NCBI GenBank assembly: GCA_021775455.1
Contig: JAJFHU010000015.1
Coordinates: forward strand, 124,001 to 188,000
DNA: 64,000 nucleotides
Direction of reading: 5' to 3'
Source of the DNA: Hyphomicrobiales bacterium
Lineage (GTDB): Bacteria; Pseudomonadota; Alphaproteobacteria; Rhizobiales; Rhizobiaceae
The notes beneath the pieces were generated by a model. The model saw only the letters and a program-made list of their open reading frames with translations, was not told the DNA's origin and ran no database searches. This document shows, piece after piece, positions 14,253-54,044 of the stretch. The translations under genes and the position numbers were made by a program. Numbering within the stretch: the first letter of the stretch is position 1; every line of letters starts with the position of its first letter.

Positions 14253-14289
14253 TCGTTTCCTGCCGTTGTTGCCAAAGACCAAACAAACC

Positions 14290-14326
14290 AAAAAACATCC
14301 GGGGGCGCAACGCGCTGCCGGATGTG
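14290..14326 (-). terminator. Intrinsic terminator or attenuator in the ffh leader
   Basis: On the minus strand ACATCCGG and CCGGATGT pair, with an inner GCGC-GTT-GCGC hairpin, followed by six T. No annotated minus-strand gene ends here; the site lies just upstream of ffh and downstream of the dapF divergent start region. Either a short transcript ends here or ffh expression is attenuated. Confidence 0.5.
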
Positions 14327-14500
14327 TGCCTGCGGGATCACTTTATACCTTTTCGGGTCCTGCTCGGCGGGTTAGTTGTGGTCTCTGACAAGAGATGAGG
14401 GGGAAGAACACTTTTTGCAAGCAAAAGTCAAGGATTGTGTTGGAGAATCAAGGCACGCGAATACTTTGCATTTCACCCAAAACAAGCCTATTTGGATGCC

Positions 14501-46714: not shown

Positions 46715-48676
46715 ATGTCAGACGAAGTAAAAACCTATCCCGTTCCCGGGGACGTCAAGGCGAAAGCCCTGATCGACAAAGACAAGTATGTCAAAATGTA
46801 TCAGGCAAGCGTCAAGGATCCCGATGCATTCTGGGGTGAAGAAGGAAAACGGCTTGACTGGATAAAGCCCTACACCAAGGTCAAGAACACCAGCTTTGAG
46901 TATCCTGATGTTTCGATCAAATGGTTTGAGGACGGGACGCTCAACGTGTCTGCCAACTGTATCGACCGGCATCTCGAAAAGCGCGGTGACCAGGTGGCTA
47001 TCATCTGGGAGGGAGACGAACCCACTGACGACAAGAAGGTAACCTATCGTGAACTCCATGAAGAGGTTTGCCGCCTTTCCAATGCGATGAAAGCAGAAGG
47101 CGTGAAGAAGGGTGACCGCGTTACGCTCTATATGCCCATGGTTCTGGAAGCTGCCTACGCCATGCTTGCGTGCACCCGTATTGGCGCGGTGCATTCGATC
47201 GTGTTCGGCGGATTTTCACCGGATGCACTTGCCGGGCGGATCGTGGATTGCCAGTCAGAATTTATCATCACAGCGGATGAGGGAGTTCGCGGCGGCAAGA
47301 TCATCCCGCTCAAGAAAAACACTGATGCGGCGTGCAAGATTGCTGCAGAAGCTGGTCAGAAAGTGAAGAAGGTTCTGGTCGTCAAGCGCACTGGCAACGA
47401 CATCAATTGGGTGGATGGCCGCGATATCTGGTATCACGATGCATGCGGGGCAGCTTCAACCGATTGCCCGCCTGAGGAGATGAATGCGGAGGATCCGTTG
47501 TTCATCCTTTACACATCAGGCTCTACCGGAATGCCAAAAGGCGTGCTGCACACGACTGGCGGATATCTGGTTTGGGCCTCGATGACGCATCAATATGTCT
47601 TCGATTATCACGATGGTGACATTTACTGGTGTACTGCGGATGTAGGCTGGGTGACCGGACACTCTTACATCGTCTACGGACCGCTCGCCAATGGGGCGGT
47701 TACCCTGATGTTTGAGGGCGTACCGAACTATCCAAGTACTTCGCGGTTCTGGGAAGTGTGTGACAAGCACCAGGTGAACCAGTTTTATACAGCACCAACA
47801 GCGATCCGCGCATTGATGCAGACAGGTGATGAGCCGGTTACTTCCACTTCGCGCAAAAGTCTGAGAATTTTGGGCACGGTGGGTGAACCAATCAATCCGG
47901 AAGCCTGGGAATGGTACTACAATATAGTCGGCGACAAACGTTGCCCGATAGTGGACACTTGGTGGCAAACGGAAACCGGTGGCCACATGATTACCCCGCT
48001 TCCAGGTGCAACCGATCTGAAACCCGGCTCGGCAACCCTGCCGTTCTTTGGTGTTCAGCCGCAGCTTGTTGACAATGATGGCAATCCGCTTGGGGGCGTG
48101 ACGGACGGTAATCTTTGCATTATTGATTCATGGCCGGGTCAAATGCGGACTGTATATGGTGACCATGAGCGGTTCGTGCAAACTTACTTCTCCACATACA
48201 AGGGCAAGTACTTTACCGGCGATGGCTGTCGCCGCGATGAGGATGGTTACTACTGGATCACCGGACGCGTGGATGACGTAATCAATGTTTCCGGTCACCG
48301 CATGGGTACGGCCGAAGTGGAATCGGCGCTTGTTTCCCATCCTGCAGTTTCAGAATCGGCGGTAGTCGGTTATCCCCACGACATCAAGGGTCAGGGCATC
48401 TACTGCTATGTGACCCTGATGAAAGGCGTTGAACCGAGCGATGAGTTGCGCACGGAACTTAGAAATCATGTGCGCACTGAAATCGGCCCGATTGCGTCTC
48501 CCGATGCGGTCCAATGGGCACCTGGTCTGCCGAAGACACGTTCAGGCAAGATCATGCGACGTATCCTGCGCAAGATTGCGGAGGATGATTTTTCCAATCT
48601 GGGAGATACTTCAACGCTTGCTGATCCTGGTGTTGTTGATGATCTCATCAAGAACCGGCAGAACCGCAAGGGCTGA
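46715..48676 (+). CDS. acsA: Acetyl-CoA synthetase
   Basis: 653 aa of standard length, preceded by GGAGGAG. It activates acetate to acetyl-CoA through acetyl-AMP. The adenylation motifs are [36 protein letters not shown], and [23 protein letters not shown]; the C-terminal domain has [11 protein letters not shown] with the lysine that is inactivated by acetylation. CoA-binding and N-terminal acs segments are normal. A 28-codon ORF and a strong terminator lie downstream. Confidence 0.97.
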
Positions 48677-49043: not shown

Positions 49044-49829
49044 TTATCTTGAATTACCTCCCTTCTTCCTTGTACCTGATTTGCGAAGCTTCCCGGTTAC
49101 ACTGGCAATGCTGGAAAGGGTTGCCTGCTGGTAAGGCCCATATTTGTCCACGTTGACGTGGGTAATGGTCGGATCGGATGAGAAATCGATGTTTTCAATT
49201 TTGCCATCAAAACCATCGGCAGGGTGAATTTTATTGTCGGCTGATTTTGTACTTGCGCCAATGCGCACATCGTTTTCCCTGGGTAAATAATAGTTCACCA
49301 CCCGCTTAATTCCCCTTCGAACCACCCCCCGTTCGACCGGATCGAATGCCACAATCAACTCAACGTTCACACCATTTGCTGTCAGATAGTTGGCGAATTT
49401 GCTACTTTCATTGGCACCAAGAGAATGGCCAACGATAATTACGGGGTAAGAAACCTTCTTGCGCTTTGCCCGGTTCACAATGTCCTGGGCAATGGGCTGC
49501 CACTGGGAATAGGAAAAATTTGACGCATCATAGCCATCCTGCCGCAAGCGGCGTGCCATATCATCGATGCCGCGGGAAAACACATTGGCAAGGCCGCGCA
49601 TCAAGTAAATTTCTCCGGTGCGCCTTACATGTTGTTTGGATCGCTTGATGACATCGGTGGGTTTAACTGAATCCGGCTCATGGGTGTCCAGCTCAACCGG
49701 TGTCGTGGTGGCGAGTGTGGCCTCAACCTGGTTTTCATCGGGTGTAGAAGAACTTGACTGGCATGCAACCAGAGCCAGCAGGCCTGTAACTGCTGTCAGG
49801 TTTGCCAGCATTTTTCGATTTCCAAACAT
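49044..49829 (-). CDS. Lipoprotein with alpha/beta-hydrolase domain
   Basis: 261 aa. The N-terminus has a lipobox LVAC at about residue 23, then a Ser/Thr/Pro-rich linker. The domain from about residue 70 has the nucleophile elbow VGHSLGANES, then AFDPVERG and a late THVNVDK that could supply Asp and His. The fold is like a lipase or thioesterase of unknown substrate. No specific family is recognised. The predicted place is the periplasmic face of the inner membrane or the outer membrane. Confidence 0.75.
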   Translation of the reverse strand: MFGNRKMLANLTAVTGLLALVACQSSSSTPDENQVEATLATTTPVELDTHEPDSVKPTDVIKRSKQHVRRTGEIYLMRGLANVFSRGIDDMARRLRQDGYDASNFSYSQWQPIAQDIVNRAKRKKVSYPVIIVGHSLGANESSKFANYLTANGVNVELIVAFDPVERGVVRRGIKRVVNYYLPRENDVRIGASTKSADNKIHPADGFDGKIENIDFSSDPTITHVNVDKYGPYQQATLSSIASVTGKLRKSGTRKKGGNSR

Positions 49830-49962
49830 TTGACATCCTGAAATTTAATCTTGTACGGATTGTTCCCATCACCATAATTTGTGGTCACGAAAAAGTCACG
49901 AGTTTGGATCAGTTGCCCGGATTGCCCGCCGAACCTATCTGAGCACTTCAGGCGTACGAATT

Positions 49963-51027
49963 TCAGGCGGCGTGGTATTCTTGCAATACAGGCAGACTTG
50001 ATACAGATGCGGGATTTTCGCCGTAAACACTAACCATGCCCCGCCCACTGTGCTTTGACTGATATAGAGCGCTGTCAGCCTGTTTCATCAGCTGCTTGCG
50101 GTCACTGCAATAACTGGTGGCAAAGGTAATTCCGACACTTGCTCCAACCTGCAATGCCTGGCCTTCGGAGGCCACCGGAAAGCAAGCATCACTAACCAAC
50201 TGTCGCGCCAGATTAATGGCACCGGCTTTGCAGTTTACAGTCAGGACAGAAGCAAATTCATCGCCGCCCACTCGTGCAATTACGCCTGATCCGGTCATGG
50301 TTTCCCTGAATCTTGCAGATAGCTGCTTCAACAGCTCATCTCCTGCGTGATGTCCATGTGTATCATTGACCTGCTTGAAATTATCGAGATCGAGACAGAG
50401 AACAGCAATTGTTCCATTGTCATTGTCATTCAAGGTCCGGTCAATCTCCATGTCCAGGTGCTCTCGATTGGGCAGGCGCGTCAGATTATCGTGGGTAGCG
50501 AGGAACCGGTTCCGTCGCTCGCTTTCTTGAAGCGCCCGGATGCCTCTAACGTGTCTTTTCAACAAGAAGAACAAGGCCGCAAATATTGCTGCGCCCAATC
50601 CAACCACGATGGGGGCGATTTTGCTGATAATTTCAGATCGGGGTGATGCCGGCTTCCAGATCAACTTCATTCTGGGCTGCCCGATTTCAGCATCCAGAGC
50701 CACCGAAGCATCTTTTAGCCAACGAGTTGAAGCAGGCACGATCCGAAGCCCGAATATATCCAGACGTTTAGAGATGTCGGTCAGTTTTGCTGGTGTCAGA
50801 TGAGGCGGACTGTACCCGAACTTATGCAGCATATTGATTTCGGTATGAAGCAGTTTGGCTTCTGTCAGAACAGCCCGTCGGTTTGCAATGTGGGAAGCCA
50901 TGTTCACCGTTATGCCAATGCTGGCGATGAATGCTACAAGAATGATCGCGACCAATCCATAGGCAAGCTGCGCAGTGCTTTTACGATCTTTCTTTGCCAA
51001 GATCATGCCAGCATCTTTACCCGACAT
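49963..51027 (-). CDS. Diguanylate cyclase (GGDEF) with membrane sensor
   Basis: 354 aa. A first transmembrane helix at about residues 19-42 and a second at 137-158 bracket a periplasmic domain of about 95 residues with no family I recognise. The GGDEF domain covers about 180-340: LTRLPNREHLD, FKQVNDTHGHHAGDELL, ARVGGDEFASVL and the C-terminal ADSALYQSKHSGRG. The GGDEF core is intact, so it probably makes c-di-GMP. No EAL domain; no RxxD inhibitory site was made out. Its periplasmic signal is unknown. Confidence 0.92.
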   Translation of the reverse strand: MSGKDAGMILAKKDRKSTAQLAYGLVAIILVAFIASIGITVNMASHIANRRAVLTEAKLLHTEINMLHKFGYSPPHLTPAKLTDISKRLDIFGLRIVPASTRWLKDASVALDAEIGQPRMKLIWKPASPRSEIISKIAPIVVGLGAAIFAALFFLLKRHVRGIRALQESERRNRFLATHDNLTRLPNREHLDMEIDRTLNDNDNGTIAVLCLDLDNFKQVNDTHGHHAGDELLKQLSARFRETMTGSGVIARVGGDEFASVLTVNCKAGAINLARQLVSDACFPVASEGQALQVGASVGITFATSYCSDRKQLMKQADSALYQSKHSGRGMVSVYGENPASVSSLPVLQEYHAA

Positions 51028-51226
51028 CCATCTACCCTCTATGCGCGTCCCGTGATTGTGGTGTCGAGGTTAGGGCAATTCCCTGAAAATTGTGTTTTGT
51101 TGTTACGGAGGATTTGTTTGTTCCGGTTAAGGATTGGTTTTCTGCAATGTGCCTTCCTGCACATACATTGTGACACGCCAAGGGTAATTTATGCACATAC
51201 CCCAAGACCAAACCCGGAGCATAACC

Positions 51227-51676
51227 ATGACTATCACCCGTACCCTATTGGCAGCTTCATTGCTTGCCGCAACTTCTGCAACCGTTGCTAGTGCCGGCAA
51301 TTTTGTTGTCCCAACCGGGCCCAAGATCAAGGTTACCAAGGCGCAGCTTGCGATCAAAAGCCCAAGCGCAAATGTTTGTCCTGCCCAAGCTGAAATGGCT
51401 GGCTGGATTTTTACAAACAAGCCAGGAACCATTTACTACATGCTGGCGCGCCAGGGTGGTGCTGTAAGCGGACCTTATGCGCTTGAATCAAAAGAAGGTG
51501 CGGCAGGCGTATACATCGCAAGCTTTTCTCAAACACTCAATATTCATCACAAGACGGATACCGCATATCGTATTCTGGTTGGTGAAAAGTACGGCAAGAC
51601 GCTCAGCAACTGGGCCAACCTGAAAGCCCCATGCAAAATCAAGCTTGGTGGTCAGGACGTACTACAAGGCGGGTAA
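51227..51676 (+). CDS. Secreted hypothetical protein
   Basis: 149 aa from ATG 51227 (MTITRTLLAASLLAATSATVASAGNF); a longer frame starts 12 codons earlier. The signal peptide is clear, with a likely cleavage after ASA. The mature protein has two Cys, and a basic, beta-rich make-up (KIKVTKAQLAI, YYMLARQGGAVSGPYALES). No family recognised. The stop is 13 nt from the end of the antisense-strand small RNA. Confidence 0.7.
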   Translation: MTITRTLLAASLLAATSATVASAGNFVVPTGPKIKVTKAQLAIKSPSANVCPAQAEMAGWIFTNKPGTIYYMLARQGGAVSGPYALESKEGAAGVYIASFSQTLNIHHKTDTAYRILVGEKYGKTLSNWANLKAPCKIKLGGQDVLQGG

Positions 51677-51688
51677 TTTCATCTGCGC

Positions 51689-51790
51689 AAAAAAAATGCT
51701 CGCCAGGAGGGTGGCGAGCATTATTAAAAAAACCAGCTGAAGGAGGGGATAGCTGGTTTGAGGCTGAACAAGGGAGGAGGAGTGTTACAG
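51689..51790 (-). ncRNA. Small RNA with anti-Shine-Dalgarno loops, alpha-r14/NfeR1-like
   Basis: On the minus strand three C/U-rich loops follow in a row. The first holds the exact CCUCCUCCC motif, and may be closed by GAGGCUG/CAGCCUC (51788-51794 with 51760-51766). The second is AAACCAGCU/AGCUGGUUU with a CCCCUCC loop (51730-51759) and a U7 tail. The third is a GC-rich terminator stem (51695-51722) with a CCCUCCU loop, and U8. This is the layout of the rhizobial alpha-r14 family (NfeR1-like). A -10-like CTATAG lies at 51794-51799, which overlaps the 5' arm of the first stem, so either the start is near 51787 without that stem, or the promoter lies elsewhere. Confidence 0.75.
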
Positions 51791-51956
51791 CCTCTATAGC
51801 GGCAGTTTTTGACCGCCGTTAAAAGGTGTATAGATAATTTCATTCCTCATTTGCAGCGTTTTTCTCTCATGGGAGCCATGCACGAGACGCATATCTGTAC
51901 TAATTGTTCATGAGTGCATATCTTTCTGTAATTACCAGAAAGAGGTAGAAAATACT

Positions 51957-52475
51957 GTGATTGAAATTCCAATTCATGAAAGCGAATGCCTTCACCTCCG
52001 TGCTCCCTGTCAGGGTGATTTTGAAGCGGAAGCCGAATTTTATGCCAGTGAGCGCTCAAGTTTTGTTGGTGGTCCGCTGACCCGTGAATTTGCCTGGCGA
52101 AAGCTTCCATCTGTTATTGGTCATCGGCAGCTACGTGGATATGGCATGTGGGCAGTTGATGAAAAATCATCCGGTGCATATTGCGGTCGTGCAGGTCTTT
52201 GGTATCGGGAAGGCTGGCCTGAACCGGAAGTCGGCTGGTCCCTGATACAAAATGCAGAGGGCAAGGGCTATGCACTGGAAGCTGCGCTGAAGTCCCGCGA
52301 ATATGCCTACGGGACGCTTGGCTGGACGACTGCAATCAGCCTTATTGGCGCAGGCAACAAGCGATCTGAGGCATTGGCGAAACGAATGGGTGCAGTGTTT
52401 GATTATGAGTATAAACATCCAGGTTATGGAGCAATGCTTGTCTGGCGACACCCGCCGCCAGAGGATTGTGCCTAG
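51957..52475 (+). CDS. GNAT acetyltransferase, RimJ/RimL type
   Basis: 172 aa from GTG 51957. HLRAPCQGDFEAEAEFYASERS, GRAGLWYREGWPEPEVGWSLIQNAEGKGYALEAALKSREYAYGTLGWTTAISLIGAGNKRSEALAKRMGA shows the acetyl-CoA site (xGKGYAxEA) and the L-x-x-x-N-x-x-S pattern of the ribosomal-protein alanine acetyltransferase group. The substrate is not known. AGAGG is 12 nt upstream, rather far. Confidence 0.88.
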   Translation: MIEIPIHESECLHLRAPCQGDFEAEAEFYASERSSFVGGPLTREFAWRKLPSVIGHRQLRGYGMWAVDEKSSGAYCGRAGLWYREGWPEPEVGWSLIQNAEGKGYALEAALKSREYAYGTLGWTTAISLIGAGNKRSEALAKRMGAVFDYEYKHPGYGAMLVWRHPPPEDCA

Positions 52476-52505: not shown

Positions 52506-53765
52506 TTATTGAGACAGGCGAAGCTTGCGAATATCGTTGGCGATTGCTGCGAAAGCCAAGTTCAATTCTTCAGCATTGTCTGGCGCATAAAAGTAGGTGG
52601 TTCCACCACTGTCCGGCGTTGCGCAGGCGCGAAGCGTCTTCTGCGCATCCCTGGCGTTAAATACAATTGAATAAACTGTAATGCCAGGTGCGGCGCCTCT
52701 TGGCTTCTTCATGTCATTGCACAAGGCTATGGCGTTGCTGTTGGATTTATCCTGCTGCCTCCCAAAGGGTGAATTGTTGTTTGGTACGCCCTGATAGTAG
52801 GTGTTGAACTTACCATCTGTCATCAAAATTGCGACCTTTTTTACCTTGTTGGAATAAGGGGCAGCTTTGGATGGATTTGGCCACAGGCCATTAAAATTGT
52901 TGGACAGTAGGTAGTAACTCCATGCTACGCCCAGATGGCCGGCAGTTGAACCGTCTGTCTGTAATTCACCTATCTTGTTTATCAATTGATTTTTTTGATT
53001 GGTAAGCGGCTCGATTTTTGCCTTCGGGCAATCGTCCTTGGCCCGACGATCATACCAGCTCCTGCTTCTGGAATATGGGGCGTCGGTGACGTTGCCACCC
53101 GGTCTTTCGGTTACACAGCCACTCCGAGATGCCCGTTTGGTAAGGCTACGAGCCCGTCCGTTACCAATATTGACTGATGATGAATAGGGAACAAGACCAA
53201 CTCGGACCCGCTGCATGCGGTCGTTTGGCATAAGTATGTTTACCGCATTTGCCGCAGCTTCTTTAAGGGCATTGATCCTTGAACCGCGCATGGAGCCGGT
53301 GACGTCCAGTGCCATTGTGACTTCCACATAATTGGTGGAGTATATGGCGGTTGATTCCGCTTGAACGTTTACTGTTTCATATCCGGCAATCCGGGTCAGG
53401 GTCATGTCCACGTCGGCGCTTGCCCGGCCATAAATTTTCCCGGTATTCTTGTCGATTGAAAAATCCTCAATCTTGAATTTTTCGGGATCCGGCACCCGCC
53501 TGCTAATGTTTGCGAAGAAGAAATCCTCAAACCTGTCCTGGTCTACTTCGGTGTCATTATCCATGTCGTTACCGGCCGCCAGTACGGCTGCATCCAGAGC
53601 CCCGGCAACCAGGGCCTGGGTTCTGGCGATTTGCGAATAATCCAGCGCTACACCGGCGGCCATCATAACTGCGAATATTGAGAACACAGTTATCGTTGCA
53701 ACGGATGCGCTCACATCGCGTCTGAAGCAATTTATCTGGTTAACAACTTGTGAAACCTGTTTCAT
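52506..53765 (-). CDS. TadG-like protein with VWA domain
   Basis: 419 aa from Met at 53765 (MKQVSQVVNQI). It has an N-terminal TadE/G-like segment with one hydrophobic helix (SVATITVFSIFAVMMAAGVALDYS), then a linker, and a von Willebrand A domain with the MIDAS motif ALDVTGSMRGSR near residue 160, and DGKFNT. Such proteins lie in Tad/Flp pilus loci, but no other tad genes are visible here, so this is an orphan copy. A surface or adhesion role is inferred only. Confidence 0.82.
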   Translation of the reverse strand: MKQVSQVVNQINCFRRDVSASVATITVFSIFAVMMAAGVALDYSQIARTQALVAGALDAAVLAAGNDMDNDTEVDQDRFEDFFFANISRRVPDPEKFKIEDFSIDKNTGKIYGRASADVDMTLTRIAGYETVNVQAESTAIYSTNYVEVTMALDVTGSMRGSRINALKEAAANAVNILMPNDRMQRVRVGLVPYSSSVNIGNGRARSLTKRASRSGCVTERPGGNVTDAPYSRSRSWYDRRAKDDCPKAKIEPLTNQKNQLINKIGELQTDGSTAGHLGVAWSYYLLSNNFNGLWPNPSKAAPYSNKVKKVAILMTDGKFNTYYQGVPNNNSPFGRQQDKSNSNAIALCNDMKKPRGAAPGITVYSIVFNARDAQKTLRACATPDSGGTTYFYAPDNAEELNLAFAAIANDIRKLRLSQ

Positions 53766-54044
53766 ATTGGTGTCCTCGAGTTTAGCTGACCTAATAGGTG
53801 CAAAGGCAATGCCAGTTTTGCCCAATATGAGTTACAAAACCGTTCACCATTCAGTTGGTCACAGAAACTAGAATGATTTTTGGAGAAACGGGGTAAACCA
53901 ACGATTAATGGGTGCCGAATTTACGTCACATTACTGTGCGGATTTGGATCAGATTAAGGGCGACTTCCGGCACATGCCTGAGTTTGAAGGATGCAGCCTC
54001 AGTTTCAAACCTCTGGTTTTGGATCTGGAAATCCGGGTGGATTA

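Follow-up and report, generated by a model that had tools for sequence, protein, structure and literature searches.

A probable small RNA gene of the alpha-r14 (NfeR1) type with divergent loops at a conserved locus in a Rhizobiaceae bacterium

Several described groups of small RNAs carry anti-Shine-Dalgarno (anti-SD) motifs in the loops of their hairpins. The founding member of the alpha-r14 (ar14) family, Rfam RF02344, is NfeR1 (Smr14C2, SmelC397) of Sinorhizobium meliloti; in the published account, the family motif is identical in all three hairpins, the three seeds of NfeR1 are reported to be redundant, and an LsrB box TGCA-N6-GCAT is placed at −72 to −60 (PMC10746234). NfeR1 is an Hfq-independent transcript of 123 nt with the sigma-70 promoter CTTAGAC-N17-CTATAT. 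A published regulatory target is ntrB, silenced by pairing at its start, and solute-binding proteins of ABC systems are a reported target class. In the ‘cuckoo’ group of Rhizobiales, SmelA075 and SmelA099 have three to four hairpins with anti-SD loops on variable stems, and each hairpin loop is reported to contain CCUCCUCCC-like motifs (PMC3927594). CcsR1-4 of Rhodobacter sphaeroides, which go with CcaF1 (DUF1127), are also RNAs with anti-SD loops (PMC10253847). AbcR1/AbcR2 (alpha-r15, RF02345), again from Rhizobiales, are anti-SD RNAs with transport targets, and AbcR1 stands under LsrB/VtlR (PMC8844928, PMC7486931).

Here we describe a related locus in a window, the whole stretch of DNA analysed, of 64,000 nucleotides from a Hyphomicrobiales bacterium of the Rhizobiaceae. 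As far as the sequence can tell, its minus strand most likely carries a real small RNA gene, an ar14 orthologue and NfeR1-like in action. The RNA resembles NfeR1, as portrayed in that account (PMC10746234), in its hairpins with open anti-SD loops, a promoter of its own (predicted here), an LsrB-type box at an equal distance from the start, and the CCUCCUCCC seed, here in loop 1. Unlike NfeR1, it scores below the ar14 cut-off, lacks the 9-mer in loops 2 and 3, has an added motif-free 5′ hairpin and is not matched by a site at ntrB. It is like SmelA075 and SmelA099 in its plan of hairpins, but its loops comprise one full motif and two CCUCC cores, the first hairpin having none. In contrast to CcsR1-4, it does not follow a DUF1127 gene and a promoter of its own seems to drive it, and the CcsR1 model gives 17.9 bits on the window stretch against a cut-off of 65.3. 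With AbcR1/AbcR2 it shares its anti-SD type and probable transport targets, but these form a separate covariance family: ar15 is absent from the five matches in the window stretch, and no ar15 match was found in the own genome at E ≤ 0.01.

The predicted transcript covers 51690-51820 of the minus strand (about 131 nt); sequence and conservation place its start near 51820 and its end inside the U-run that reaches 51689. It lies, as a preliminary description of this DNA had it, between a gene for a secreted-looking protein (51227-51676, plus strand, no Pfam family at E ≤ 0.001), which is convergent and ends 13 bases from the RNA 3′ end, and a divergent gene for a GNAT acetyltransferase (51957-52475, plus strand; PF13302, 86.4 bits). 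Two genes farther out serve as synteny markers: the ORF at 46715-48676 on the plus strand, which we take to be acs (acetyl-CoA synthetase), and a gene for a VWA-domain protein at 52506-53825 on the minus strand (PF00092, 31.8 bits).

The three minus-strand stems with C/U-rich loops that had been claimed fold as stated (51690-51800, −42.9 kcal/mol, z −9.0), and none of 200 shuffles was as good. The longer segment 51690-51822 folds into four hairpins at −53.3 kcal/mol (z −10.4; again 0/200 shuffles). Hairpin H1 (51800-51818) is a 5′ stem-loop without an anti-SD motif; H2 (51760-51794) carries CCUCCUCCC at 51780-51772 in its loop; H3 (51730-51759) has the loop AUCCCCUCCUUC, with CCUCC at 51746-51742, and is followed by a U-run; and H4 (51695-51722), with the loop motif CCCUCC (CCUCC at 51710-51706), is an intrinsic terminator by fold and terminator scan. 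A CCUCC-type motif in all three loops, exactly CCUCCUCCC in the first, had also been noted correctly: loops 1, 2 and 3 contain CCUCCUCCC, CCCCUCC and CCCUCC, respectively, and the predicted unpaired probability of the motif bases is 1.0. Folded singly, all ten complete sequences of the orthologous set, window included, form four hairpins, with H1 predicted in each of these ten with a complete 5′ end, and the 5′-cut sequence of genome G009 forms three.

The preliminary description had further seen two stems each followed by a U-tract. U-runs do follow the second and third of the three stems, but that after the second (H3) is not conserved in the orthologues, and only the last stem (51722-51695) is terminator-like in the terminator scan. 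The T-run 3′ of H4, which extends to 51689, is on the minus strand and so should terminate minus-strand transcription. A seven-T run at 51726-51732 spans the end of the second CCUCC hairpin, with three T in the stem and four beyond, and no run so long is present there in the other sequences of the 11 aligned; early termination after this hairpin, giving a shorter form of the RNA, is possible. The clustering of the motifs was rejected as evidence by itself: three CCTCC loops within 105 bases, one gap between motifs being 31 bases, form the only such cluster in the window, and when the window was simulated 200 times with an order-1 model, 26 of the simulations had at least one three-motif cluster. 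The weight falls on the folding z-score, the Rfam match and conservation.

The covariance search with the Rfam alpha-r14 model that had been proposed as a check gave a divided outcome. Scanned in full with cmscan at gathering thresholds, the window returned no ar14 match, but below the threshold there is a clear one, with conserved structure: 51800-51691 on the minus strand, 50.1 bits against a gathering score of 58.8 (E 4.1e-8 in 701 bases searched). It spans 123 of the 123 model positions with the three hairpins in order and is the best of five covariance matches in the 701 bases, the next having an E-value of 0.038. The 5′ leader lies beyond the ar14 model and is not presented as unique: by eye, the start of some other family members likewise appears to lie well ahead of the model. 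In the own genome (G000), a lax cut-off gives three ar14-like places, of 50.1, 39.5 and 34.8 bits; nine of 14 control genomes also match at the lax cut-off, so the latter two need other support. A search of 61 genomes at E ≤ 0.01 gave matches in 45, above the family cut-off in 34, and none in the 14 controls. The 39.5-bit place (G000:C60:104782-104889; L131 3783-3890) lies directly behind a DUF1127 gene, in the CcsR/cuckoo arrangement. Because the window RNA falls below the Rfam cut-off and lacks the full motif in some of its loops, we class it as a divergent variant. Its presence puts a regulatory RNA of an established kind in a species where the Rfam cut-off misses it.

An ar14-type RNA is found at the same locus in nine of 11 congeners (G001, G004-G011) and in G012, which belongs to another genus; the genus is known here mostly from uncultured genomes. 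These ten positional orthologues score 61.7-86.8 bits with ar14, all above 58.8, and the window RNA has the lowest score of the 11. Both flanks, acs and the VWA gene, are visible in eight of the ten loci, and near a contig end a single flank is seen in G009 (acs only) and G011 (VWA side only). The acs pieces beside the orthologous RNAs are 68-94% identical (tblastn). Where contigs extend beyond the acs-VWA interval, a small ORF is followed by genes that, by tblastn homology, are presumably htpX and rsmB. In the remaining congeners, G002 (75% complete) and G003 (71% complete), no ar14 match could be placed at the locus; by eye, the G003 match sits behind a DUF1127-like end. The window RNA has the same interval and orientation as the orthologues. 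Its acs-VWA interval (49044-52475) adds four genes, at 49044, 49963 (GGDEF), 51227 (secreted) and 51957 (GNAT); of these, the congeners' intervals yielded the secreted one alone, in G008, and a tblastn search with the GNAT gene gave nothing at E ≤ 1e-6 at the orthologous loci. Relatives of the secreted-protein gene at L047 (G008) and L048 (G010) have one and two internal stop codons, respectively. In a survey of the best 80 htpX loci from named genomes, out of more than 80 relatives and with several loci ending short upstream of htpX, five loci had a three-motif cluster on the strand opposite to htpX, roughly 2 kb upstream of it, and two others had one elsewhere. The five (L050, L051, L055, L074, L076), all from Rhizobiaceae metagenome-assembled genomes, are those of G004, G005, G007, G010 and G011.

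A covariance model independent of the window (R1) was built from nine orthologues, G009 being omitted as its 5′ end is missing at a contig start. All 146 of the 146 R1 positions match the window RNA, at 51822-51689, with 70.3 bits and an E-value of 1.4e-16, and a weak second match lies at 51639-51728 on the opposite strand, with 16.5 bits and an E-value of 0.02, both E-values being rough because of a short calibration; under stricter filters the window RNA is the sole match in its own genome at E ≤ 0.01. With the covariance match to ar14 and the synteny with copies above the cut-off, the window-free model bears out the ar14/NfeR1-type assignment made at the outset.

Covariation was assessed in an 11-sequence MAFFT alignment with a structure of 27 pairs in H1, H3 and H4. 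H2 was excluded from the pair counts, its arms having been set out of register between subgroups by MAFFT; it is predicted in each sequence folded singly. Pairing was found in 92.7% of cells (82.1% in shuffles), 36 cells were changed on both sides (13.6 in shuffles), 15 pairs had changes on both sides (8.6 in shuffles) and the covariation score was 0.368 (0.195 in shuffles), each reached by none of 500 shuffles; slid versions of the structure scored at most 0.112. The count of further pair types was not above shuffles (257/500), and RNAalifold gave a small covariation term, −1.88, for the same alignment. By hairpin, paired changes fell on two of the five pairs counted in H1 and on all eight counted in H3.

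Where does the transcript start? CTATAG at 51799-51794 had been taken for the −10 element, leaving stem 1 and the number of stem-loops in doubt. This was mistaken: the orthologues differ there, and a conserved −10, CTATAC at 51833-51828 (minus strand), lies 34 bases upstream, in a column that reads CTATAT, CTATAC or TTATAT in all ten aligned promoters (G009, with its missing 5′ end, was left out). This column stands 7-10 bases before the 5′ hairpin, as spaced by eye, and therefore puts the RNA start near 51820 and gives four hairpins, with stem 1 intact and preceded by the motif-free one. Compared with CTTAGAC-N17-CTATAT of NfeR1, the −10 is in the conserved column and no clear −35 is recognised. 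A simple sigma-70 scan listed no minus-strand promoter in 51500-52100, only a plus-strand one at 51809-51838, so the argument for the promoter is its conservation.

A putative LsrB-type (LysR family) box, identified by motif match, is present at 51878-51892, where TGCA-N6-GCAT is exact on the plus strand (51879-51892) and has one mismatch on the minus strand (51891-51878); a start at 51820 would put it at about −72 to −59. All ten aligned promoters have ATGC-N7-GCAT about 45 bases above the −10, and, by eye, eight of them carry an exact TGCA-N6-GCAT on the minus strand and the other two, the window and G006, carry it on the plus strand. Because the window contains five exact matches (and 104 with at most one mismatch, 94.8 being expected), the evidence is place and conservation, not the motif alone. 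The VtlR consensus GCAT-N3-TG-N3-T, taken from published accounts (PMC8844928, PMC7486931), was tried and rejected, as its spacing misfits by eye and the NfeR1 form fits. In form and distance the predicted box would correspond to the LsrB box of NfeR1, and this suggests control of the window RNA by LsrB. Beside a trxB-like gene, the own genome encodes a LysR protein that shares 79% identity with the one in G008; by context we take the two to be LsrB and trxB.

The loops are less uniform than in the family description. CCUCCUCCC is present in loop 1 in 11/11 aligned sequences, in the third ar14 loop in nine, being absent there from the window and G008, and in the second only in G012. Full 9-mers thus number three in G012, two in eight congeners and one in G008 and the window, the latter having the identical motif in one of its three loops.

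Which mRNAs would such loops meet? The ntrB start of G000, where the ATG overlaps the preceding gene's stop, has no purine-rich or complementary site, and its duplex is predicted at −1.6 kcal/mol (shuffle mean −6.0). The pairing of loop 1 with ntrB is weaker than that with shuffled sequence in three genomes (G000, G008 and G012) and close to expectation in G004. For G008, G004 and G012 the tblastn match gave an approximate start region, and for every genome the loops used were loops 1 and 2 of the window RNA. On the G000 start sequence and the duplex energies in four genomes, all of it prediction, ntrB was rejected as a target here. A genome-wide search for perfect GGGAGGAG lying 3-12 bases ahead of an ATG listed eight occurrences at seven distinct places (three for the reversed control pattern). 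Four of the seven precede frames of at most 32 residues, and the other three precede long frames, one for an AMP-binding enzyme, one for a solute-binding protein (SBP_bac_1) and one of 317 residues. With only these seven places, and no complementary site at ntrB, the ‘global translation regulator’ of the preliminary description is not borne out.

The gene for the solute-binding protein (PF01547), which has GGGAGGAG ahead of its ATG, has relatives in five of nine related genomes at E ≤ 1e-100 and none at that threshold in G008, G007, G011 and G012. GGGAGGA precedes the start in all six copies compared, the own one included. Predicted pairing to this site is −17.5 kcal/mol for loop 1 and −11.5 and −10.9 kcal/mol for loops 2 and 3, and −11.8 kcal/mol for a 16S tail. 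In any case, a GGGAGGA conserved in this way makes a good ribosome-binding site in its own right.

It is highly probable, in our judgement, that the RNA is trans-acting, orthologous to the ar14-type RNAs at the same locus in the genus and driven by a promoter like that of Sinorhizobium NfeR1, and that it works as follows. Judging from sequence and conservation, its own promoter, with the LsrB-type LysR activator box upstream, would give a transcript of about 131 nt, which would stop at the intrinsic terminator H4. The stems would keep the C/U-rich anti-SD loops open, and these, by analogy with NfeR1, for which others put it to the test, would pair with purine-rich ribosome-binding sites of the GGGAGGA type and block translation initiation; transport genes, such as those for ABC-system solute-binding proteins, are on the same analogy the probable targets. 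Loop 1 would serve as the single full-length seed, and loops 2 and 3, which keep the CCUCC core, have a predicted binding strength close to that of a 16S tail. Three other readings were weighed. A CcsR/cuckoo-type RNA processed from the 3′ UTR of a DUF1127 mRNA, instead of a stand-alone NfeR1-like gene, would have a parallel in the own genome, where an ar14-like locus is linked to DUF1127 (G000:C60, and likewise the match in G010:C4), but inspection by eye shows no DUF1127-like ORF upstream of the window RNA on the minus strand, the one upstream minus-strand ORF (51847-52110) runs antisense to the GNAT gene, and the conserved −10 and box just upstream of the RNA count against processing; such an origin is very improbable. 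That the structure is a mere terminator or spacer for neighbouring genes, with no function in trans, hardly deserves credence: its last hairpin does form a strong terminator close to where the secreted-protein gene ends, yet the T-run on the minus strand is of no use to that plus-strand gene, and both the position of the RNA and its loop 1 are kept in loci with different neighbours otherwise.

The drop in full 9-mers, from three in G012 through two in eight congeners to one in G008 and the window, together with the window's ar14 score, lowest of the 11, could also mark a decaying, non-functional copy at a locus that is kept in the genus, the motif being lost in the window species and G008. All four window stems are nevertheless intact although the sequence differs from the others (z −10.4), and the box, the −10, the terminator and the loop 1 seed are retained, and we regard decay as improbable. 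On the preferred reading of a functional trans-acting RNA, we offer the tentative and rather doubtful idea that the NfeR1-type RNA of the genus gained a seedless 5′ hairpin and loses redundant seeds stepwise (three, two, one), always keeping loop 1. If true, the orthologues would form a natural series showing the 5′-most seed under selection in an RNA freed from the ntrB circuit; their graded seed loss is a natural test of the published claim of three-seed redundancy.

Two further stretches were noticed. In the own genome, near the LsrB-like gene, the minus strand of L177 reads CTTCTCCTCCC at about 2350-2370, which may be a diverged AbcR RNA. In the window, 14288-14339 on the minus strand matches the Rfam ffh sRNA family (RF01793) with 44.6 bits against a cut-off of 35.
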